A DNA stretch of 49,080 nt from contig CAHJWK010000024.1 in the NCBI GenBank assembly GCA_903642275.1, positions 1 to 49,080 on the forward strand, written 5' to 3'. The notes beneath the pieces are model-generated. The model ran no database searches. It was not told the DNA's origin and worked only from the letters and a program-made list of their open reading frames with translations. Position 1 is the stretch's first letter; each line of letters starts with the position of its first letter. A program made the translations under genes and the position numbers. Below are positions 5,860 through 36,792 of the stretch, one piece after another. Source of the stretch: Chitinophagaceae bacterium. GTDB taxonomy: Bacteria > Bacteroidota > Bacteroidia > Chitinophagales > Chitinophagaceae.

Positions 5860-6273
5860 TTAAGCTTTGCCAGGCATTTTGCTCATATCCATAAACAAAA
5901 CATTCCACCGGTGATTGTCAGGATCAGTAAAACCAAAGCCATACATCCAACCATCTTTTTCAATGGGTTTAGCAAAAATAATTGCGCCTGCATCTGATGC
6001 TTTTTGAGCAAGTTCGTCTACTTCTTCCCTGCTTTCAGCATCGATAGAAATTAGTACCTCAGCGTTTGTTGCTGTATCGGCAATGTTTGTTTTTGTAAAA
6101 CTTTTAAAAGATGCTTCTTCAAACAACATGATAACATTCTTACCAACAACAAGGCTGGCAGATACAGGCGAATTGCCGTATTGCGTATTGAAAGAAAATC
6201 CCAATGCTGAAAAAAATTTTTTAGAATTTTCTACATTCTTTACTGGCAGGTTAAGCCATAACTGTTTTGTCAT
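5860..6273 (-). CDS. VOC-family (glyoxalase/bleomycin-resistance fold) protein
   Basis: A 137-residue vicinal-oxygen-chelate protein of the single-gene type common in bacteria. Seen in the sequence: LWLNLPVKNVENSKKFFSALGF at the start (first beta-alpha of the fold), an EEVDELAQKASDAGAI helix, and the ending GFGFTDPDNHRWNVLFMD, which carries the family's DPDGN-like turn. The start at 6273 (MTKQLWLN) is preferred; the longer frame to 6327 would run into the end of the DUF1080 gene. Substrate unknown; these proteins include dioxygenases, glyoxalases and antibiotic-binding proteins. It follows the DUF1080 gene on the same strand with a 32-base gap and is convergent with the saccharopine dehydrogenase. 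Confidence 0.85.
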   Translation of the reverse strand: MTKQLWLNLPVKNVENSKKFFSALGFSFNTQYGNSPVSASLVVGKNVIMLFEEASFKSFTKTNIADTATNAEVLISIDAESREEVDELAQKASDAGAIIFAKPIEKDGWMYGFGFTDPDNHRWNVLFMDMSKMPGKA

Positions 6274-16463: not shown

Positions 16464-17498
16464 TTATATTATTACACCTGCAAACTGTTTCAAAAAACGT
16501 ACATCATTTTGCGAGTATAATCGCAAATCATTTACACGATACTTAAGCTGACAAATTCTTTCAATACCCATTCCAAATGCAAATCCTGTATATACTTCCG
16601 GGTCAATATTAAAGGTTGATAACACATTCGGATGCACCATACCACTGCCTAAAATTTCAACCCAGCCTGTGTACTTGCAGATATTACAACCGGAACCGCT
16701 GCATATCAAACAACTTATATCCATCTCTGCGCTTGGCTCGGTGAATGGAAAATAAGATGGCCTAAAACGAATGCGCACATCATTTCCAAACATTTCCTGC
16801 ACGAAAAAATACAGCGTTTGTTTTAAATCAGCGAAGCTTACGTTGTCATCAACATATAAGCCTTCAACCTGGTGAAAAAAACAATGCGCTCTTGCACTGA
16901 TGGTTTCATTTCTATATACACGTCCTGGGCAAATTATACGTATCGGCGGCTTTTGTTTTTCCATTACCCGTGCCTGCACATTGCTGGTGTGTGTACGCAA
17001 TAACCAGTCAGGATTCTGATGCACATAAAATGTGTCCTGCATATCTCTCGCTGGGTGATTTTTAGGCATGTTCATGGAAGTAAAATTGTGCCAATCGTCT
17101 TCAATCTCCGGCCCTTCAGCTAAAGTAAACCCCAAACGGTTAAAGATTGAAATAATACGGTTTCTTACAATGCTCAGAGGATGTCTTGTGCCGATAGTTA
17201 TGGCGTCACCGGGCAAAGTATAATCAATGTCTTCTTTGATTTGTAGTTCAGAGGTTGTGGTTTGCAGTTTTAATTTTTCATATTTTGCTTCAGCAATTTG
17301 TTTAAATTCATTAAGTGATAAACCGGCTTCTTTTTTCTTTTCAGCAGGCACATTTTTCATTTCCTGCATCATGCTTTTTACAATGCCTTTTATGCCTAAA
17401 AATTTAATACGGAAACTTTCAGCAGCATCGTTACTATAACTTATAAAATTTTCTATTTCCTGTTTATAGTTATTAATCTGTGCTAACAATTCTTCCAT
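16464..17498 (-). CDS. pheS: Phenylalanyl-tRNA synthetase alpha subunit
   Basis: Charges tRNA-Phe with phenylalanine as the alpha chain of an alpha2-beta2 enzyme in the cytosol. The N-terminal coiled coil (MEELLAQINNYKQEIENF) is followed by the class II core. It shows HPLSIVRNRIISIFNRLGF, the motif 2 region ARAHCFFHQVEGLYVD, the phenylalanine site FRPSYFPFTEPSAEMDISC, and motif 3 GFAFGMGIERICQLKYRVNDLR. I choose 17498 (344 residues) because TATCTTAG, close to the promoter consensus, ends four bases before that ATG. An alternative ATG at 17543 adds 15 residues. pheT is not in the window, so the two subunits are encoded apart. The gene is divergent from the his leader. Confidence 0.95.
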   Translation of the reverse strand: MEELLAQINNYKQEIENFISYSNDAAESFRIKFLGIKGIVKSMMQEMKNVPAEKKKEAGLSLNEFKQIAEAKYEKLKLQTTTSELQIKEDIDYTLPGDAITIGTRHPLSIVRNRIISIFNRLGFTLAEGPEIEDDWHNFTSMNMPKNHPARDMQDTFYVHQNPDWLLRTHTSNVQARVMEKQKPPIRIICPGRVYRNETISARAHCFFHQVEGLYVDDNVSFADLKQTLYFFVQEMFGNDVRIRFRPSYFPFTEPSAEMDISCLICSGSGCNICKYTGWVEILGSGMVHPNVLSTFNIDPEVYTGFAFGMGIERICQLKYRVNDLRLYSQNDVRFLKQFAGVII

Positions 17499-17550
17499 GC
17501 GGCTAAGATAAGCATTGTAATTTTTTTGGGTTGTTATCAACATTCATTCT

Positions 17551-17558
17551 TAAATTTG
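17551..17558 (+). promoter_or_regulatory. Promoter -7 element (TAAATTTG) of the his operon leader
   Basis: Exact TAnnTTTG match 7 bases before the leader-peptide ATG. TTG triplets at 17526-17528 (22-base spacer) and 17531-17533 (17-base spacer) are candidate -33 elements. Confidence 0.6.
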
Positions 17559-17565
17559 CATTGTA

Positions 17566-17619
17566 ATGATTCACACTACTCATACACATCATCATTTTAT
17601 CCGTAAGGGTAAGCTGTAA
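17566..17619 (+). CDS. hisL: Histidine operon leader peptide (attenuator peptide)
   Basis: A 17-residue ORF, MIHTTHTHHHFIRKGKL, with five His codons, three of them consecutive (17587-17595). It sits directly after a TAnnTTTG promoter element and 71 bases before hisG, with a terminator hairpin in between. This is the arrangement of transcription attenuation: ribosomes stall on His codons when charged tRNA-His is scarce. The ORF is too short for ordinary gene finding. The composition, position and the competing RNA structures downstream make it convincing, though it rests on sequence alone. Confidence 0.85.
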   Translation: MIHTTHTHHHFIRKGKL

Positions 17620-17680
17620 TGATTTGTATGTAACTATAAAACATTTCAAACAAAGGCTTACTAAAACAGTGAGCCTTTTT
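17608..17680 (+). promoter_or_regulatory. his attenuator: antiterminator and terminator hairpins
   Basis: The terminator has an 11-bp stem between 17652-17662 (AAAGGCTTACT) and 17668-17678 (AGTGAGCCTTT), with one G-T pair, a five-base loop and a T run, ending about 10 bases before hisG. The competing antiterminator pairs GGTAAGCT (17608-17615), which overlaps the last leader codons, with GGCTTACT inside the terminator's left arm; its core is the 6-bp match GTAAGC/GCTTAC with wobble pairs at the ends. A ribosome that finishes the leader peptide covers the first strand and permits termination. A ribosome stalled on the His codons leaves it free. Pairing strength was judged by eye. Confidence 0.8.
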
Positions 17681-17690
17681 TATTTTTTGT

Positions 17691-18554
17691 ATGATGGAGA
17701 CCAGATTAAAAATAGCGTTGCAAAAATCAGGAAGGCTGTATGATGATTCTGTTTCAATACTTAAAGAATGCGGAATTGAATTACAAAACGGCGTAAATAA
17801 GTTGTTGAATGAAGCCGTTAATTTTCCGCTGCAGATTTTGTTTTTGCGCGATGATGATATTCCACAATATGTTCAGGATGGTGTTGCAGATATCGGCATC
17901 ATTGGTGAGAATATTGTGTATGAAACAAACAAAGATGTGCAAATAATTGATAAGCTTGGCTTTGGTAAATGCAGGTTATCTGTTGCTGTGCCGCGAAATG
18001 AAAATTATAAAAGTGTTGATTTTTTAAAGCATAAAAAAATTGCAACCAGTTATCCTTTTTTATTGAAAAATTTTTTAAATGAAAATCAAGTTGATGCAGA
18101 GATTCACGAAATAAGCGGCTCCGTTGAAATTACTACAGGCGTTGGCCTTGCAGATGCTATCTGCGACCTTGTAAGTTCTGGTAGTACGCTGTTTTCAAAT
18201 GGATTGAAAGAAACAGAAGTAATACTTAATTCTGAGGCAGTACTTATCAGCAATCAAACTATTTCAATAGAAAAAAAATTATTGCTTGATAAATTATTGT
18301 TCAGAATCCAGGCAGTAAAAAAATCAAAAAAGCATAAGTATATATTATTGAATGTGCCTGATAGTAACCTTGAAACAGTTTGCAATATTATACCTGGTAT
18401 GAAAAGCCCGACTATTCTGCCGCTCGGTGTTGAAGGCTGGAGTTCATTGCACTCTGTTGTACATGAAGATGATTTCTGGAACGTGATTGAAAGCCTGAAG
18501 GCAAATGGTGCCGAAGGAATTTTAATTATACCGATTGAAAAAATGATTCTATGA
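17691..18554 (+). CDS. hisG: ATP phosphoribosyltransferase, long (HisG-L) form
   Basis: First enzyme of histidine synthesis, joining ATP and PRPP. The 287-residue length and the C-terminal ACT-like regulatory domain (from about residue 215, ending NIIPGMKSPTILPLGVEGWSSLHSVVHEDDFW) identify the long form, which is feedback-inhibited by histidine and needs no HisZ. The catalytic part shows LKIALQKSGRLYDDSVSILKECGI, DIGIIGENIVYE and the PRPP loop region EITTGVGLADAICDLVSSGSTL. Two adjacent ATGs exist (17691 and 17694). The stop overlaps hisD by ATGA. Expression is likely governed by the attenuator just upstream. Confidence 0.97.
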   Translation: MMETRLKIALQKSGRLYDDSVSILKECGIELQNGVNKLLNEAVNFPLQILFLRDDDIPQYVQDGVADIGIIGENIVYETNKDVQIIDKLGFGKCRLSVAVPRNENYKSVDFLKHKKIATSYPFLLKNFLNENQVDAEIHEISGSVEITTGVGLADAICDLVSSGSTLFSNGLKETEVILNSEAVLISNQTISIEKKLLLDKLLFRIQAVKKSKKHKYILLNVPDSNLETVCNIIPGMKSPTILPLGVEGWSSLHSVVHEDDFWNVIESLKANGAEGILIIPIEKMIL

Positions 18555-19828
18555 TGCAGGTTATAAAATATCCGCTGCGAAAAGATTGGGATGAATTATT
18601 GAAGCGGCCTTCGCAAAATTTTGATTCTATAAAAGAAAAAGTACAAAGCATAATTAATGATGTTAAGCAATACGGTGATGAAGCGTTGAAAAAATATTCA
18701 AAGCAATTTGATGAAGTTGAAATAAACAATTTTGGCATAGATGAAAATGAATGGAAAGCAGCAGACACAATTGATGAAGACTTAAAGAATGCTATCAAAA
18801 CTTCAATTAAAAACATTACAACGTTTCATCAATCACAAAGAGAAGAAATTAAAAAGATTGAAACTATGCCTGGCGTTATATGCTGGCGTAAATCTATAGC
18901 GATAGAAAAAGTTGGTTTATATATCCCTGGCGGAACGGCGCCATTATTTTCAACATTAATCATGCTTGCTGTTCCAGCTATGCTAGCTGGCTGTAAAGAA
19001 ATTATTGTTTGTACACCACCTCAAAAAGATGGAGCAATTCATCCTGCTATTTTATATACAGCAAAACAGATTGGTGTCAATAAAATTTATAAACTTGGCG
19101 GCGCACAGGCAATTGCAGGAATGACTTTTGGTACGCAAACAATTAATAAAGTAAATAAGATTTTCGGGCCGGGAAATCAATATATAACCTGTGCAAAAAT
19201 GTTGTTGAGTGCAGAAGGTATTGCGATTGATATGCCAGCTGGTCCAAGCGAAGTTGCGGTGCTTGCAGATGAAACAGCAAATGCAAAATTTATAGCGGCT
19301 GATTTATTATCCCAAGCTGAACATGGAAAAGATTCACAGGTTATTTTAGTTACAAATAGTGAAGCTATCATTAATCAAACGAAAAGATACATTGAGCAAC
19401 AATTAAATGATTTATCAAGAAAAGAAATTGCAACAGCAGCTTTGCTCAACAGTAGAATTATTTTAGTAAATACTTTAACTAAAGGCATTGATTTATTAAA
19501 CGAATATGCGCCTGAACATTTGATTATTGCATGCAAAGATGCTGAGCAGCTTGCTGAAAAAATTATAAATGCAGGTTCTGTGTTTATCGGAAATTATTCG
19601 CCGGAAAGTGCCGGTGATTATGCATCCGGAACTAATCATACATTACCAACAAATAGTTTTGCAAAAGCATTTAGCGGTGTTTCTTTAGATAGTTTTTTAA
19701 AAAAAATTACTTTTCAGCAGTTAACAAAAGAAGGATTGAATAATATATTTTCAACAGTGCAGCTAATGGCAAATGCAGAAGGATTGCAGGCACATGCAAA
19801 CGCAGTAACAGTTAGAATTAAAAATTAA
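18551..19828 (+). CDS. hisD: Histidinol dehydrogenase
   Basis: Oxidises L-histidinol to L-histidine in two NAD-dependent steps; a zinc enzyme. At 425 residues it is full length. Family motifs include VGLYIPGGTAPLFSTLIMLAVPA, KIYKLGGAQAIAGMTFGT, KIFGPGNQYITCAKMLL, the metal/substrate region ADLLSQAEHGKDSQ (with the conserved Gln and His), and the C-terminal ENYAPEHLI-like EYAPEHLIIAC followed by GDYASGTNHTLPT. The ATG overlaps the hisG stop, implying coupled translation. hisC starts 3 bases after its stop. Confidence 0.97.
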   Translation: MMQVIKYPLRKDWDELLKRPSQNFDSIKEKVQSIINDVKQYGDEALKKYSKQFDEVEINNFGIDENEWKAADTIDEDLKNAIKTSIKNITTFHQSQREEIKKIETMPGVICWRKSIAIEKVGLYIPGGTAPLFSTLIMLAVPAMLAGCKEIIVCTPPQKDGAIHPAILYTAKQIGVNKIYKLGGAQAIAGMTFGTQTINKVNKIFGPGNQYITCAKMLLSAEGIAIDMPAGPSEVAVLADETANAKFIAADLLSQAEHGKDSQVILVTNSEAIINQTKRYIEQQLNDLSRKEIATAALLNSRIILVNTLTKGIDLLNEYAPEHLIIACKDAEQLAEKIINAGSVFIGNYSPESAGDYASGTNHTLPTNSFAKAFSGVSLDSFLKKITFQQLTKEGLNNIFSTVQLMANAEGLQAHANAVTVRIKN

Positions 19829-19831
19829 TAT

Positions 19832-20884
19832 ATGGCAAAATTTAGTGTTGATGATATTGTAAGAAACAATATAAAAAAGCTGGTACCTTATTCATCAGCG
19901 CGTTCCGAGTTTGATGGCGATGCACAGGTTTTTTTAGATGCTAATGAAAACAGTTTGGGTTCAATATCAAATGAAAAATATCACCGCTATCCTGACCCCT
20001 TACAGAAAAAATTAAAAGAGCAAATAAGTGCTGCAAAAGATATACATACTGAAAAAATTTTTATTGGTAATGGCAGCGATGAGGCAATTGATTTATTAAT
20101 ACGTGCTTTTTGCAACCCGGGGGAAGACAATATTTTAACTACGCCGCCAACCTATGGTATGTATGAAGTTTGCGCTGCCATTAATGATATTGCTGTACTA
20201 AAAGTATTGCTTACAGACGATTTTGAACTTGATATGCACAAAATAAAAAAATCAATAAATAAAAAAACGAAATTGATTTTTATATGTTCTCCAAATAACC
20301 CAACCGGTAATTCTTTTAGTACAAGTGATATAAAAGATTTATTAGAAAAATTTAAAGGGCTTGTTATTGTTGATGAAGCATATATTGATTTCTCTGAAAG
20401 AAATTCTTTATTAAAAAAATTAAAAGATTATCCCAACCTTGTTATACTGCAAACGCTTTCAAAAGCCTGGGCACTTGCCGGTTTAAGAATAGGAACTGCT
20501 TTTGCCTCAAAGCAAATAATTGACATTCTTAACAAGGTAAAACCTCCTTATAATATCAGTATTATAACGCAGCAACTCGCAATTAAAGTTTTGTCTTCAA
20601 ATGCAGATGTATTTAAAAATGTTAAGGTCATCAGATATGAAAAAGAAAAATTATTACATGATTTAAAAGAGTATGGTTTTGTAAAAAAAGTGTATGAATC
20701 TGATACTAATTTCTTACTGGTTAAAGTAAGTAATGCAACTGCTTTATATAATTATCTTATTACAAAAAATATTGTTGTTCGCAACAGAAGTAACCAGCCG
20801 CTGTTAAAAAATTGCTTGCGGATAACAATAGGCACTCCGGATGAAAACGCTTTTTTAATTCAGGCTTTAAATGAATATAAATAA
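19832..20884 (+). CDS. hisC: Histidinol-phosphate aminotransferase
   Basis: PLP-dependent fold-type I aminotransferase that makes histidinol phosphate from imidazole acetol phosphate and glutamate. It has 350 residues. Visible marks are [10 protein letters not shown] near the N-terminus, [14 protein letters not shown], the [11 protein letters not shown] substrate/PLP segment, [11 protein letters not shown] with the PLP-ring Asp, and [16 protein letters not shown] with the Schiff-base lysine. The C-terminus shows [18 protein letters not shown], with the substrate-carboxylate Arg. The start is 3 bases after hisD; hisB begins 1 base after the stop. Confidence 0.97.
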
Positions 20885-20885
20885 A

Positions 20886-21758
20886 ATGAAAAAGCTGTTT
20901 ATAGATATTAATGCAATAATTGATTTAGATAGCGATTTGATTTTCGAAAAAGATGTGGTTCATAATTTATATCTCATCAATAAGCAATTAAATTATGAGT
21001 TAACAATAGTTAAAACGGATACAAACGTTTACAGCGAAAAAGCTTTAATTTTTTTAAAGAATGAAAGCATTTCATTTGAATTAGTAAAAAACATAAATGA
21101 ACTAAACACAAATTGTCAATACATTAAAAAAGCAGGGTTTACAAGCTGGGATGAATTGTATAAAAACTTGAAATATTCTTTAAGAAAAGCACATTATGTA
21201 AGAAACACTAATGAAACAAAGATTAAGATAGAATTAAATCCGGATGGAACCGGCTTTTATAATATTTCAACCGGACTTGACTTTTTTAATCACATGCTTG
21301 AGCAGTTTTCAAAGCATAGTTTGATTGATGTAAACTTAAAAGTTGACGGTGATTTACATATAGATGAACATCATACAATGGAGGATACGGCAATTGCTTT
21401 AGGTGAAGCAATTTTAAAATCTTTAGGTGATAAAAAAGGAATGGAACGTTACGGATTTTTGTTACCGATGGATGATTGCTTGGCGCAAGTTTCGATTGAT
21501 TTTGGTGGCAGAAGCTGGCTCGTTTGGGAAGTAGAATTTAAACGGGAAAAGATTGGTGATGTGCCAACGGAAATGTTTTATCATTTTTTTAAATCATTCA
21601 GTGATGCCGCAAAATGCAATTTGAATATTAAGGCAGAAGGCATTAATGAACATCATAAAATTGAATCTATATTTAAAGCTTTTGCAAAAGCAGTTAAGAT
21701 GGCTGTTGCTTTGAATTATGAAAGTGATGTGTTACCAACAACAAAAGGAATTTTATAA
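20886..21758 (+). CDS. hisB: Imidazoleglycerol-phosphate dehydratase with vestigial N-terminal HAD phosphatase remnant
   Basis: The C-terminal domain, from about residue 107, is a complete [32 protein letters not shown], the Mn ligands in [36 protein letters not shown] and [14 protein letters not shown]. In typical bacteroidete HisB a HAD histidinol-phosphatase of about 165 residues precedes it. Here only about 105 remain. The start [15 protein letters not shown] keeps the first beta strand, but the FIDRDGT motif has become FIDINAI, and no TNQDG-type motif II or Lys/DD motifs are visible. The join ([18 protein letters not shown]) still lines up with the bifunctional enzyme. The protein should therefore dehydrate IGP but not dephosphorylate histidinol phosphate. 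I start at 20886, after the hisC stop. Confidence 0.93.
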
Positions 21759-21830
21759 TGTTCGAAAAGAAGTATGAGTAAACAGAGAAAGCTTAGTGTT
21801 CTCTGATTGCTAAGTGCGATAATTGTTTAA
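21758..21830 (+). promoter_or_regulatory. hisB-hisH spacer with competing hairpins and a 7-codon ORF
   Basis: This is the only sizeable gap inside the otherwise packed his operon. It holds CAGAGAA (21783-21789) with its exact inverse TTCTCTG (21799-21805), and an overlapping pair CTTAG/CTAAG, so two mutually exclusive hairpins are possible. A minimal ORF (MFEKKYE, 21758-21781) overlaps the hisB stop by one base. There is no T run, so it is not an obvious terminator. Role unknown: mRNA processing or stability is possible. Confidence 0.4.
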
Positions 21831-22412
21831 ATGAAATTAGTAGTTATAAAATATAATGCGGGCAATGTAACTTCTGTAAATTTTGCTTTGCAACGCTTGG
21901 GCATTGATGCAGTGGTTACAGATGATGTAACTGAAATTTTGCAGGCCGATAAAATTATTTTCCCTGGTGTTGGCGCAGCTAATTCAGCGATGCTATACCT
22001 AAAAGAAAAAAAGCTAGACATGCTTATAAAAAATATTCAGCAACCGTTTCTGGGTGTATGTCTTGGTATGCAGTTGTTGTGTGATTTTTCAGAAGAAGGC
22101 AATACGCAATGTATTGGTGTTTTTAACCAGCCAGTAAAAAAATTTACAGGGAATGAAAAAGTTCCACAGACAGGATGGAATAATATTTATGATTTACAAT
22201 CACCGCTATTCAAACATGTTGATGAAGAAGCTTACATGTATTTCGTGCATAGTTATTACGCAGAGCTTTGTGAATACACTGTTGCAAAAACAAATTATAC
22301 AGTTGAATATAGTTCCGCTTTACAAAAAGATAATTTTTATGCAGTTCAGTTTCATCCTGAAAAATCTGGTTCAGCAGGAGAGAAGATTATAAAAAATTTT
22401 ATTGAATTATGA
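21831..22412 (+). CDS. hisH: Imidazole glycerol phosphate synthase, glutaminase subunit
   Basis: Class I glutamine amidotransferase that supplies ammonia to HisF. It has 193 residues. The nucleophile Cys is in PFLGVCLGMQLL, and the His-Glu pair is in FYAVQFHPEKSG. The subgroup signature MYFVHSYYAE and the early oxyanion strand KIIFPGVGAANSAM are also seen. The start is at the end of a 72-base gap after hisB, and its stop overlaps hisA by ATGA. Confidence 0.97.
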   Translation: MKLVVIKYNAGNVTSVNFALQRLGIDAVVTDDVTEILQADKIIFPGVGAANSAMLYLKEKKLDMLIKNIQQPFLGVCLGMQLLCDFSEEGNTQCIGVFNQPVKKFTGNEKVPQTGWNNIYDLQSPLFKHVDEEAYMYFVHSYYAELCEYTVAKTNYTVEYSSALQKDNFYAVQFHPEKSGSAGEKIIKNFIEL

Positions 22413-23125
22413 TTGAAATAATTCCTGCAATTGATTTAATAGATGGTAAGTGCGTAAGGCTTTCACAAGGTGATTATCAAACAAAAAAAATATACAATGA
22501 ATCACCTCTTGATGTTGCAAAACAATTTGAAGATGCAGGACTAAAAAGATTGCATATTGTTGATTTGGATGGCGCAAAACAAGGGAAAATCATTAATATA
22601 AAAATATTGGAATCAGTTGCTTTATCAACCAAATTAAATATTGATTTTGGTGGCGGAATAAAAACAACCGAAGATGCGCAACTTGTTTTTAATAGTGGAG
22701 CATCAATTATAAATATTGGAAGCATTGCTGTAAAACAACCTGAGTTAGTTTATGAATGGATACAAAGTTTTGGTGCTTCTAAAATTTTGTTAGGCGCTGA
22801 TGTAAAAGATGAAATGATTATGATTAATGGCTGGCAGCAATCAACATCACTTAATATTATAACTTATATCAGCAATTATATAAATAAAGGTATTGATAGT
22901 ATTTTTTGTACAGATATTTCAAAAGATGGTTTGCTTGAAGGCGTTTCCATCAATTTATATAAAAAGCTTTTGAACATTTTTCCGCAACTTAAATTAATTG
23001 CGAGTGGTGGTGTTGGTTCAATAAAAGATATTGAAGAGCTTGAAGCAATTGGTTGTTCAGGCGTGATTATTGGCAAGGCTTTGTATGAAGAAAAACTCAG
23101 TCTTAAAGAACTTAATAATTTTTAA
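22409..23125 (+). CDS. hisA: Phosphoribosylformimino-5-aminoimidazole carboxamide ribotide isomerase
   Basis: Isomerises ProFAR to PRFAR by an Amadori rearrangement; a (beta/alpha)8 barrel of 238 residues. It starts [23 protein letters not shown] with the catalytic Asp of AIDL. It then shows [25 protein letters not shown], the central [12 protein letters not shown] with the second catalytic Asp, and [16 protein letters not shown] with a phosphate-binding loop. The ATG overlaps the hisH stop, and hisF starts 4 bases after its stop. Confidence 0.97.
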
Positions 23126-23129
23126 ACTG

Positions 23130-23885
23130 ATGCCGCTTGCAAAAAGAATAATTCCCTGCCTTGATATTAAAGATGGCAGAACCGTTAAAGGCATCAACTT
23201 TAAAAATATTCGTGATGCCGGAGATGCAGTTGAACTTGCCGCTTATTACGCAAACGAAGGCGCGGATGAGCTTGTGTTTTTAGATATAACTGCAACAAAT
23301 GAAAAGCGGAAAACATTAACGGCGCTTGTGCAGCATGTTGCAGCTGCTATCAATATTCCGTTTACCGTTGGTGGAGGTATAAGTTCAATTGATGATGTAA
23401 ATGCTTTATTGAAAGCCGGTGCTGATAAAGTCTCCATCAATACAGCAGCTGTAAAAAATCCATCATTGATAAATCAACTGGCTAATGAATTTGGCAGCCA
23501 GTGCATAGTTGTCGCTATTGATGCGAAGTTTGAAAATGATAATTGGTTTGTGTATTTAAATGGTGGCAGAAAGGCAACTGATATCAATGCTGTTGAATGG
23601 ATAAAACAATCAATTGATTTAGGTGCCGGTGAAATTTTATTAACGTCAATTAATCATGATGGAACGAGGCAGGGCTTTGCGAACAATTTAATAAAGCATG
23701 TAGAATTGTTTTCATCAATTCCTGTTATTGCAAGCGGTGGTGCAGGCAACATGCAGCACTTTGCAAACGTATTTAATGCCGGTGCTGATGCGGCTTTGGC
23801 GGCAAGCTTGTTCCATTTTAAAGAGATGAGCATTTCATCTTTAAAAAAATTTTTAAAAGAAAAAAATATTGATGTAAGAACATGA
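23130..23885 (+). CDS. hisF: Imidazole glycerol phosphate synthase, cyclase subunit
   Basis: With HisH, forms imidazole glycerol phosphate and AICAR from PRFAR and ammonia. A barrel protein of 251 residues. The N-terminus [32 protein letters not shown] carries the catalytic Asp of CLDI, and [15 protein letters not shown] carries the second catalytic Asp. [13 protein letters not shown] and [13 protein letters not shown] are the phosphate-binding loops. I start at 23130, since the longer frame from 23070 lies inside hisA. It overlaps hisIE by ATGA. Confidence 0.97.
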
Positions 23886-24475
23886 ATCCAGACTTTGATA
23901 AATTTCCTGATAAGCTTGTTCCTGTTATAGTTCAGGATGCATCAACAAATAAAGTTTTGATGTTAGGTTATATGAATAATGATGCGTACAATAAAACCAT
24001 CATCAATAAAAAAATAACTTTTTACAGCCGCTCTAAACAAAGGCTTTGGGAGAAAGGCGAAACCAGCGGTAATTATCTTTTTGTAAAAGAAATAATAAAT
24101 GACTGTGATAATGATTGTTTATTAATAAAGGCAAACCCTGCGGGGCCGGTATGCCATACCGGTGCAGATACTTGTTTTAACGAAGTAAATAAGGGCAGCT
24201 TTTTAAACCAACTGGAAAAAATTATTGAATCAAGAAAGCAAACGCAACCAGATGATTCTTATGTAAGCAGTTTGTTTAAAAAAGGCATCAATAAAATTGC
24301 ACAAAAAGTAGGTGAGGAGGCAGTTGAACTTGTTATTGAATCAAAAGATAATAATGATGAACTTTTTAAAAATGAAGCCGCAGATTTGTTGTTTCATTAT
24401 TTAATTCTTTTGAATGCCAAAGGTTTAACACTTCATGATATTGAATCGGTGTTGGAACATCGGCATAAGAAATAG
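23882..24475 (+). CDS. hisIE: Fused phosphoribosyl-AMP cyclohydrolase / phosphoribosyl-ATP pyrophosphatase
   Basis: Carries steps 2 and 3 of histidine synthesis on one 197-residue chain. The HisI half (residues 1-105) shows [30 protein letters not shown] and the zinc cysteines in [26 protein letters not shown]. The HisE half shows [28 protein letters not shown], with the acidic metal site, and [14 protein letters not shown]. It is the last his gene. The next gene has its own promoter element one base after the stop, so the operon probably ends here, though I see no clear terminator. Confidence 0.97.
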
Positions 24476-34909: not shown

Positions 34910-34980
34910 CACGGGCACTAGGATTCGAACCCAGATCGAAGGTTTTGGAGACCTTAATTCTACCATTGAAATATGCCCGT
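34910..34980 (-). tRNA. tRNA-Trp (CCA)
   Basis: The minus strand reads ACGGGCA at the 5' end, pairing with TGCCCGT at the 3' end. The anticodon loop CTCCAAA gives CCA, and the T arm contains GGGTTCGAATCC. About 71 bases. The position between tuf and secE is usual in many bacteria. Confidence 0.94.
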
Positions 34981-35087
34981 ATAAACCCTAATCAAAAGGG
35001 ACTTTAAAGAACTTCTTAAAGAAACAAAGTACCTGTGCTTTTCAGCTCAAGTACTTTGCAAATATACTATCTGTGCTTCCATACTTT

Positions 35088-35099
35088 CCGCCGCGGCGG
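35088..35099. repeat. Perfect GC-only palindrome CCGCCGCGGCGG
   Basis: A 12-base palindrome of only G and C, about 10 bases beyond the tuf stop, in a strongly AT-rich background. Confidence 0.85.
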
Positions 35100-35109
35100 C
35101 GATGGGTGA

Positions 35110-36297
35110 TTATTTTAGAATTTCTATAACCTGACCAGCACCAACTGTACGGCCACCTTCGCGTATAGCGAACTTCAAACCTTTTTCCATTGCTATTGGC
35201 TGAATCAGCTTCACAGTTAAGCCGATATTATCACCAGGCATTACCATTTCCGTTCCTTCAGGTAAAGAAACTTCGCCGGTAACATCGGTTGTTCTGAAAT
35301 AAAATTGCGGACGGTATTTATTAAAGAATGGAGTATGACGGCCACCTTCTTCTTTGCTTAATACATACACTTCACATTTGAATTCTGTATGTGGCGTAAT
35401 GCTTTTTGGCTGACAAATAACCATACCGCGGCGTATCTGTGATTTTTCAATACCACGCAATAACAAACCTGCGTTATCACCTGCTTCACCACGATCCAAT
35501 AATTTCTTAAACATTTCAACACCTGTAACCGTTGAGTTAAGTGGCGCATCCATCAAACCTACAATTTCAACAGATTCACTTACTTTAACTACACCGCGTT
35601 CGATACGGCCTGTTGCAACAGTACCACGACCTGTAATTGAAAACACATCTTCAACACTCATTAAAAATGGCTGGTCAATCGGCCTTGGAGGTAAAGGAAT
35701 GTAAGTATCAACTGCATCCATTAGTTCTTCAACTGCTTTAACCCATTTGTCTTCACCAGCCAAAGCACCTGTTGCAGAACCTTTAATAATTGGTGTGTTG
35801 TCTCCGTCAAATCCATAAAAAGAAAGCAATTCACGAATTTCCATTTCAACAAGCTCAATCAACTCCGGATCATCAACAAGATCTATCTTATTCATAAAAA
35901 CAACTACCTTAGGTACACCAACCTGGCGCGCTAAAAGAATGTGTTCTTTTGTTTGAGGCATTGGTCCATCAGTTGCTGCAACCACTAAAATTGCACCATC
36001 CATCTGTGCAGCACCCGTAATCATGTTCTTCACATAATCAGCATGACCCGGACAATCTACGTGGGCATAATGACGATTAACAGTCGAGTATTCTACGTGT
36101 GCCGTATTAATTGTAATACCACGTTCCTTTTCTTCAGGCGCAGCATCAATTTCATCATACTTTTTTGCTTCAGCCATACCTTTCTTAGCAAGAATAGTTG
36201 TAATAGCTGCTGTTAATGTAGTTTTACCGTGGTCAATGTGACCGATGGTACCAACGTTTACGTGGGGTTTGTCCCTTTTAAAAGTCTCTTTAGACAT
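35110..36297 (-). CDS. tuf: Elongation factor Tu
   Basis: GTPase that delivers aminoacyl-tRNA to the ribosome. A 395-residue, full-length protein. The P loop is GHIDHGKTT, switch II is [27 protein letters not shown], the guanine motif is NKID, and the C-terminal domains end [11 protein letters not shown]. Upstream lie four tRNA genes in the order Thr-Tyr-Gly-Thr, and downstream trnW-secE-nusG. This is the same order as the E. coli tufB region, so tuf is probably co-transcribed with the tRNAs. Confidence 0.99.
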
Positions 36298-36376
36298 TTT
36301 TATTTGTTTGTTGTGATTTTAAATTCAGCATCAGCTTTAGGCTTCAGCCATTATAAAAATTTTATTCTTCAATTTG

Positions 36377-36448
36377 AGCCGTTAAAGAGAATTGAACTCT
36401 TGACCTCTTCCTTACCAAGGAAGTGCTCTGCCACTGAGCTACAACGGC
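36377..36448 (-). tRNA. tRNA-Thr (GGT)
   Basis: Minus strand GCCGTTG/TAACGGC acceptor stem, anticodon loop TTGGTAA (GGT), T arm with AGTTCAATTCT. 72 bases. The closest of the four tRNAs to tuf. Confidence 0.94.
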
Positions 36449-36537
36449 TTTTTAAAAGTCATTGAGTCAGTGAAGTCATCAGGTCATAGTAACAAATTCA
36501 ATGACTATTGACATAATAACCTAATAACTTTTGAAAG

Positions 36538-36610
36538 AGCGGGAGACCAGGCTCGAACTGGCCACCTATAGCTTGGAAGGCTATCGCTCTACCAAATGAG
36601 CTACTCCCGC
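36538..36610 (-). tRNA. tRNA-Gly (TCC)
   Basis: Minus strand GCGGGAG/CTCCCGC acceptor stem, anticodon loop CTTCCAA (TCC), T arm with AGTTCGAGCCT. 73 bases. Confidence 0.95.
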
Positions 36611-36628
36611 AAACTATACAAAGAACTG

Positions 36629-36711
36629 TGGGTAGAGAAGGATTCGAACCTCCGTACTCGTGAGAGAACAGATTTACAGTCTGTCGCCTTTAGCCACTCG
36701 GCCATCTACCC
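36629..36711 (-). tRNA. tRNA-Tyr (GTA)
   Basis: Minus strand GGGTAGA/TCTACCC acceptor stem, anticodon loop CTGTAAA (GTA), and the long variable arm expected of tRNA-Tyr. About 83 bases. Confidence 0.95.
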
Positions 36712-36719
36712 AAAACCAG

Positions 36720-36792
36720 AGCCACTTGTCGGAATCGAACCAACGACCTACTGATTACAAATCAGTTGCTCTACCAGCTGAGCTAAAGTGGC
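36720..36792 (-). tRNA. tRNA-Thr (TGT)
   Basis: Minus strand GCCACTT/AAGTGGC acceptor stem, anticodon loop TTTGTAA (TGT), T arm GGTTCGATTCC. 73 bases. The first of the tRNA-tuf cluster. Confidence 0.95.

Follow-up and report, generated by a model that had tools for sequence, protein, structure and literature searches.

The window (the whole stretch of 49,080 nucleotides of Chitinophagaceae DNA analysed here) carries a his operon preceded by a short leader region; the next gene upstream, pheS, lies on the minus strand and is divergent from the operon. The elements of the leader and the genes that follow it are:

17525-17528, plus strand: -33-like element TTTG, recognized by sequence, with a 22-nt spacer to the -7 box
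17551-17558, plus strand: -7 promoter box TAAATTTG, recognized by sequence, which fits the Bacteroidetes TAnnTTTG consensus (PMC7366714, PMC9723704, PMC6847099)
17563-17564, plus strand: predicted transcription start, giving a 5' UTR of 2-3 nt, by analogy with the spacing between box and start in F. johnsoniae and F. psychrophilum (PMC6847099, PMC9723704)
17566-17619, plus strand: leader ORF MIHTTHTHHHFIRKGKL, 17 codons with five His, stop codon TAA at 17617-17619, from the sequence and from His-rich ORFs in relatives
17581-17606, plus strand: strand 1 (17581-17602, four His codons) and loop (17603-17606), from the fold; the partner in the absence of a ribosome is 17607-17630
17607-17616, plus strand: strand 2, GGGTAAGCTG, the 5' strand of the antiterminator, overlapping the K-G-K-L codons at the leader end
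17652-17662, plus strand: strand 3, 5' arm of the terminator and 3' strand of the antiterminator, from the fold, the terminator scan and competition folding
17668-17688, plus strand: strand 4, 3' arm of the terminator (to 17678) and U-rich tail (17679-17688), from the terminator scan and the sequence
17691-18554, plus strand: hisG, with Pfam HisG and HisG_C; probable start 17694
18551-24475, plus strand: hisD, hisC, hisB, hisH, hisA, hisF and hisI/E, from Pfam domains, named from domain and gene order

The probable hisG start is the second ATG, at 17694, which is the start position of hisG in aligned close relatives. In HisB (20871-21758), the residues ahead of the IGPD domain, which starts at residue 134, match no Pfam family (E up to 0.01); in bifunctional HisB, a HAD histidinol-phosphatase domain is expected N-terminal of IGPD. 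The longest-ORF start of pheS, at 17543, would run into the his -33 region, and a start at 17498 (MEELLAQ...) is presumably likelier, judging by the usual N-termini of PheS. Elsewhere in the window, five tRNA genes lie on the minus strand at 34910-36792, four of them inside 36377-36792.

The original prediction had described a promoter element, an ORF of 17 codons, five of them His, and an antiterminator strand that overlaps the end of this ORF, and all of these were found where it had put them. The 11-bp terminator that it had placed before hisG is also present (17652-17678, with a 5-nt loop), although 12 nt, not 10, separate the end of the hairpin from the ATG at 17691. The distance of 7 nt between the -7 box and the leader ATG (17566) was likewise confirmed. 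Folding of 17559-17690, a check proposed with the prediction, gave a structure more stable than all 200 shuffles (-33.0 kcal/mol compared with -17.5 for the shuffles; z -5.45). Within strand 2, GGTAAGCT (17608-17615) is complementary to the 5' arm of the terminator, a match that is not significant when the window's antiterminator helix is taken alone (p 0.066). Both strands of the window were searched for ORFs of 8-40 codons that hold at least four of one residue (ten residues tested) per nine codons and whose start is the first ATG after a TAnnTTTG box, 4-21 nt downstream of it; the only two matches were the leader ORF, with its five His, and an ORF with four Leu at 5954 on the minus strand, and no second His-rich ORF was found behind a -7 box on either strand.

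For the comparison with relatives, hisG was detected in 113 of 147 genomes of the window's family and in 332 of 395 across the phylum, and upstream DNA was taken from the best-matching 74 of the 113 and the best-matching 90 of the 332. Removal of upstreams with an identical 150 nt, and of locus L008, which has no upstream, gave 157 non-redundant hisG upstreams from 22 coded families and seven named contigs, 72 of them from the window's family (f1); L072, with less than 150 nt, was dropped from the His-ORF count. This sampling leaves out families with distant HisG (e.g., f13, f14, f18, f29), and many families contribute a single genome. A short ORF with at least three His in nine codons was present in 146 of the 157 upstreams, compared with 5.9% of 2355 dinucleotide shuffles, and one with at least four His in 132, compared with 0.42% of 2355; within f1 the corresponding counts were 70 and 65 of 72. 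Upstreams with at least four His occur at least once in 18 of the 22 families, and f39 (one genome) reaches three. The His leader was missing from f19 (0/3 genomes), f26 (0/1), f48 (0/1), L007, L117 and the f1 genome L065, whereas three loci counted as lacking it (L005, L067, L160) have a His leader visible in another scan. In four aligned close relatives, a run of three or four His stands at the same place.

The RNA elements downstream of the leader ORF recur as well. A scan that omitted upstreams containing N and leaders with fewer than three His detected a terminator-like hairpin in 139 of 152 leaders, including 68 of the 70 from f1, and found no terminator in the other 13. The sequences of the pairing strands vary between families while their pairing is kept: the pair is GGTAAGCC/GGCTTACC in f1, TCAGGCG/CGTCTGA in f5 (similar in f4), TGGCAGG- and CGGTAGG-type strands with GGCTTGCCG in f8, f11 and f12, CAGGTAG/CTACCTG in f2 and TCGGG/CCCGA in f17. 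A coherent strand set was not seen in f3, f9, f10, f19, f25 or f30 in this strand comparison. In 49 of 68 f1 leaders, the pairing strand starts 1-3 nt ahead of the leader stop codon, so that the stop triplet belongs to the GGTAAGCC-type strand, and the antiterminator helix exceeded 95% of shuffles in 55 of 68 leaders of f1, 11 of 18 of f5 and 22 of 53 of the other families. The original prediction had named a lack of conserved His codons or pairing in relatives as evidence against it; the outcome was the opposite, with both kept and the strand sequences differing.

Competition between the two structures was computed on transcripts ending before strand 4. The probability of finding strand 3 in the antiterminator averaged 1.00 with a ribosome stalled at the His codons, 0.19 with a ribosome at the stop codon and 0.42 with no ribosome in f1 (n=68); 1.00, 0.25 and 0.45 in f5 (n=18); and 0.88, 0.26 and 0.42 in the other families (n=51). 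The window itself gave 0.997, 0.26 and 0.001. Fold energies in the stalled state were below those of shuffles (median z -2.6 in f1, -3.8 in f5 and -1.7 in the others). When the intervening DNA was shuffled, the stalled antiterminator still reached 0.65-0.67 (0.66 in f1, where the fold gave -12.6 compared with -19.2 kcal/mol for the native sequence); the contrast between stall and stop is therefore partly built in, both because of these high values and because strand 2 is necessarily masked when a ribosome is placed at the stop. Computation shows the ORF and the strands, predicts that the strands compete, and finds them again in relatives with changed sequences that still pair. These results comprise the features of an attenuator, namely an ORF of cognate codons, an intrinsic terminator and a mutually exclusive antiterminator, the last of these in computation only, strongly in f1 and f5 and more weakly elsewhere. 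We consider it very likely that a ribosome-mediated transcription attenuator sensing charged histidyl-tRNA lies before hisG.

From these elements we infer a transcription start, initiation at a near-leaderless end and a response to histidine. RNA polymerase would start 2-3 nt before the leader ATG, and the ribosome would load at the nearly 5'-terminal AUG. When His-tRNA is short, the ribosome would stall on the His codons around 17581-17595, so that strand 2 (GGTAAGCT) could pair with strand 3 (AGGCTTACT) while strand 4 had yet to be transcribed; this pairing would prevent formation of the terminator, and the his operon would be transcribed. When His-tRNA is ample, the ribosome would reach the stop codon and cover strand 2, allowing the terminator to form before hisG. 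With no ribosome on the RNA, the leader hairpin would sequester strand 2 and transcription would be expected to stop too. The enterobacterial logic that had been proposed for this locus is supported by the recurrence of His codons, terminator and antiterminator across the sampled families.

The start codon of the leader has a characteristic position relative to the promoter. Among the 71 f1 his leaders with at least three His, a strict -7 box is present in 66 and absent in 5, and the spacing from box to start is 4-10 nt in 50 of the 66 (14 at exactly 4 nt) and 16-20 nt in the remaining 16, none falling between these classes. In two leaders of the long class (L016, L047), an in-frame GTG lies 4 nt from the box, and no f1 leader lies closer than 4 nt, though the rule admitted 2 nt. 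A TTTG at -33, 17-24 nt from the box, was found in 52 of 66 f1 his promoters (TTG only in 2, neither in 12), compared with 8.7% of random places; its spacer is mostly 18-20 nt, and the 22 nt of the window are at the long end. In F. johnsoniae, where the -33 motif is reported to be much less evident, a gap of 4-5 nt separates the box of probable promoters from the transcription start (PMC6847099), and in F. psychrophilum the box spans -12 to -5 and the leaderless share of mRNAs is given as 5.5% (PMC9723704); for B. thetaiotaomicron, the reported share of 5' UTRs shorter than 10 nt is about 3.7% (PMC7366714). By the Flavobacterium spacing, an ATG 4 nt from the box would give a leaderless mRNA and the 7 nt of the window a 5' UTR of 2-3 nt, which is our best prediction for this leader; predicted 5' UTRs would be 0-6 nt in the short class and at least 12 nt in the leadered class of f1.

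Ordinary genes from 20 genomes of the family plus the window (L307-L346 and the window) served as control: 434 had upstream room, 89 of these a strict box, and of the 65 with the box within 40 nt, 14 were at 4-10 nt and 51 beyond. Three scrambled motifs placed 1-2 control genes at 4-10 nt. The enrichment of his leaders at this spacing (50/66 compared with 14/65) corresponds to a Fisher odds ratio of 11 (p 4e-10), with genomes treated as independent although they are related. Among the control genes themselves, start codons form a small peak at a distance of exactly 4 nt from the -7 box (6 of the 65), which suggests that the family has true leaderless genes. Short spacing is also found in f2, f8, f24, f25, f35 and f46, and is rare or absent in f4, f5, f11, f12 and f17 (few genomes each), in a cross-family count that omits leaders with three His outside f1, f5 and f11 (e.g., L115, at 4 nt); f5 his leaders are 17-35 nt from the box in 11 of the 12 having one. 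A hisG tree of several families required at least eight changes between the short and long classes; this is a quick tree of 58 rows, 44 of them labelled, with 20 of 55 inner branches weakly supported and L016 labelled short because of its GTG 4 nt from the box.

Leaders before other amino-acid operons of the window's family extend this picture. A Trp-run leader precedes trpE in all 30 loci (L167-L196; WWW in 27, WW in 3), in most cases starting a few nt downstream of a weak -7 box. With a relaxed box, 21 of 22 trp leaders were at 4-10 nt and 1 was long, compared with 18 short and 65 long among ordinary genes, a contrast whose p-value is not a clean test because the relaxed box was picked after the trp leaders had been seen; only 7 of 29 have the strict box, and the procedure for picking leaders missed that of L170 and took the wrong ORF in L178. 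The sole long trp spacing is that of the window's own genome (L175), where the true box may instead be a CATCTTGC that lies nearer. Before pheA (L257-L286), 28 of 30 loci have a Phe/Tyr-run leader; 19 of the 24 that have a strict box start 4-10 nt after it (Fisher p 1e-6, again with related genomes treated as independent), and the leader of the window's own genome (L258) is 4 nt from its box. Thr-run leaders were recognized by eye before thrA in 14 of 20 loci (L287-L306; 9 of the 14 were called with GTG starts), the few measured by eye being about 11-18 nt from the box, and Ile/Val-run leaders, also by eye, before ilvD in 9 of 30 loci (L197-L226), with 12-28 nt in six picked by eye that have a box. 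A rule that all leader peptides are leaderless is ruled out by these ilv and thr spacings and by the 17-35 nt of the f5 his leaders. The window's genome does not carry all five attenuators: none was found before thrA (L287) or, by the scan used, before ilvD (L224).

The nearly leaderless leader mRNA proposed for this locus is thus borne out as a prediction from sequence, with its 5' UTR of 2-3 nt, and is not needed for the mechanism: a near-leaderless start appears favoured, not required, since most his leaders of f4, f5 and f17, like most of the ilv and thr leaders whose spacing was seen, are further from the box. These distant leaders, together with the 5 f1 leaders that lack a strict box and the 16 of 66 at 16-20 nt, would also be consistent with a real attenuator whose leader is read from a longer mRNA, made from a second upstream promoter and initiated in the ordinary leadered way, and the transcription start of the window's leader is itself a prediction. 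We nevertheless regard such an arrangement as unlikely, given the box at 4-10 nt in 50 of 66 f1 leaders, the -33 TTTG at a plausible spacing in 52 of 66, the divergent pheS, which means that no upstream operon reads into the his leader, and the empty zone below 4 nt, an edge expected if the box sets the start. For the near-leaderless start, we propose tentatively, at somewhat less than even confidence, that the his, trp and phe attenuators of f1 have been selected for a start codon at or next to the transcription start, where ribosomes could load on the AUG immediately upon its emergence from the polymerase instead of being recruited by a Shine-Dalgarno sequence, and that his leaders have switched repeatedly between near-leaderless and leadered modes, so that attenuator timing would rest on two discrete modes of initiation.

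Searches against Rfam bear on whether a protein or a small molecule, as in a riboswitch or T-box, might read the leader RNA instead, with the His-rich ORF incidental. At gathering thresholds, Rfam 15 reported only tRNAs in the window and one tRNA (in L010) in 20 further loci (16 his, 4 other operons). The Rfam His_leader (enterobacterial hisL; RF00514) gave no match in the window region at gathering or up to E 10, and no T-box was found up to E 10 in 17480-17720. The best sub-threshold matches in that interval were Phe_leader (E 0.039; 24.4 of 55 bits) and the trpB motif (E 0.15; 24.9 of 59 bits), and neither a T-box nor a riboswitch was among the 11 matches with E up to 10. A terminator and a hairpin by themselves would suit any attenuator, but His codons recur (146/157) while the RNA strand sequences change, and the corresponding leaders of trpE and pheA have runs of Trp and of Phe/Tyr, respectively, which makes reading of the leader RNA by a protein or small molecule highly improbable. 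That the hairpin is a constitutive terminator behind an ORF that arose by chance is scarcely credible: short ORFs are common, but His ORFs occur in 132-146 of 157 upstreams compared with 0.4-5.9% of shuffles, and strand 2 keeps its place at the stop codon of the leader in 49 of 68 f1 sequences.

The His attenuator of the window is, in our reading, real and widely recurring, and the placement of its start codon is the part worth testing. Attenuation needs fast ribosome loading behind RNA polymerase, and Bacteroidota mRNAs are described as having no Shine-Dalgarno sequences (PMC6847099). The his, trp, phe, thr and ilv leaders, near-leaderless and leadered, would therefore be a natural experiment on fast initiation without Shine-Dalgarno sequences, and they supply RNA elements with no above-threshold match in Rfam 15. 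Published reports differ on leaderless mRNAs in this phylum, which were detected in 1 of 37 Bacteroidetes/Chlorobi genomes in one study (PMC3160421), while leaderless mRNA and/or S1 was suggested for phyla poor in Shine-Dalgarno sequences, including Bacteroidetes, in another (PMC5397173). Our literature search, which covered few subscription papers, turned up no report of leader peptides with near-leaderless starts from Bacteroidota.

The existence of the attenuator in the phylum is partly in print. Conserved structured elements without Rfam hits have been reported upstream of hisG and pheA in Flavobacteriaceae, along with clues of leader-peptide attenuation before amino-acid operons in F. psychrophilum (PMC9723704), and the hisG element is very probably the same system as that of the window; the passages there on these elements do not give the anatomy of the His leader, the wider survey or the start-codon spacing described here. 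Short ORFs reminiscent of leader peptides are also reported from B. thetaiotaomicron (PMC7366714). A survey of leader ORFs that includes Bacteroidetes (PMC4833913) describes leader genes 11-14 bp before the structural gene, with reinitiation, which are not of the attenuator type found in the window; Lopatovskaya et al. 2010, cited there, may hold an earlier description of such attenuators. In bacilli, His leader peptides precede hisZ and hisS* (PMC2965389, whose main text does not contain the word 'bacteroid'); they share with our leaders the His codons and terminator outside Proteobacteria, and differ in genes and phylum.

The enterobacterial his attenuator consists of a leader ORF with His codons before hisG, competing hairpins and an intrinsic terminator. 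The attenuator proposed for the window resembles it in the run of His codons before hisG, the competing hairpins and the intrinsic terminator, and differs from it in that the region does not match Rfam His_leader even at E 10, the strand sequences are others, the start lies beside the predicted transcription start and no Shine-Dalgarno initiation is expected in Bacteroidota (PMC6847099). Leaderless leader peptides are reported for leuL, trpL, ilvL and thrL of S. lividans (PMC8079986, with no his leader among its eight) and for trpL of S. meliloti (PMC7298713), and leaderless initiation has been discussed for ilvBNC of C. glutamicum (PMC11857589). Like the S. lividans and S. meliloti leaders, the attenuator ORF here would start at the 5' end of the mRNA, as predicted from the promoter; unlike them, it belongs to another phylum with other promoters, and 5' UTRs of 1-6 nt are often predicted where theirs have none. 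A leader start at or near the mRNA 5' end is thus known from other bacteria, and appears from sequence to be over-used in the family of the window.
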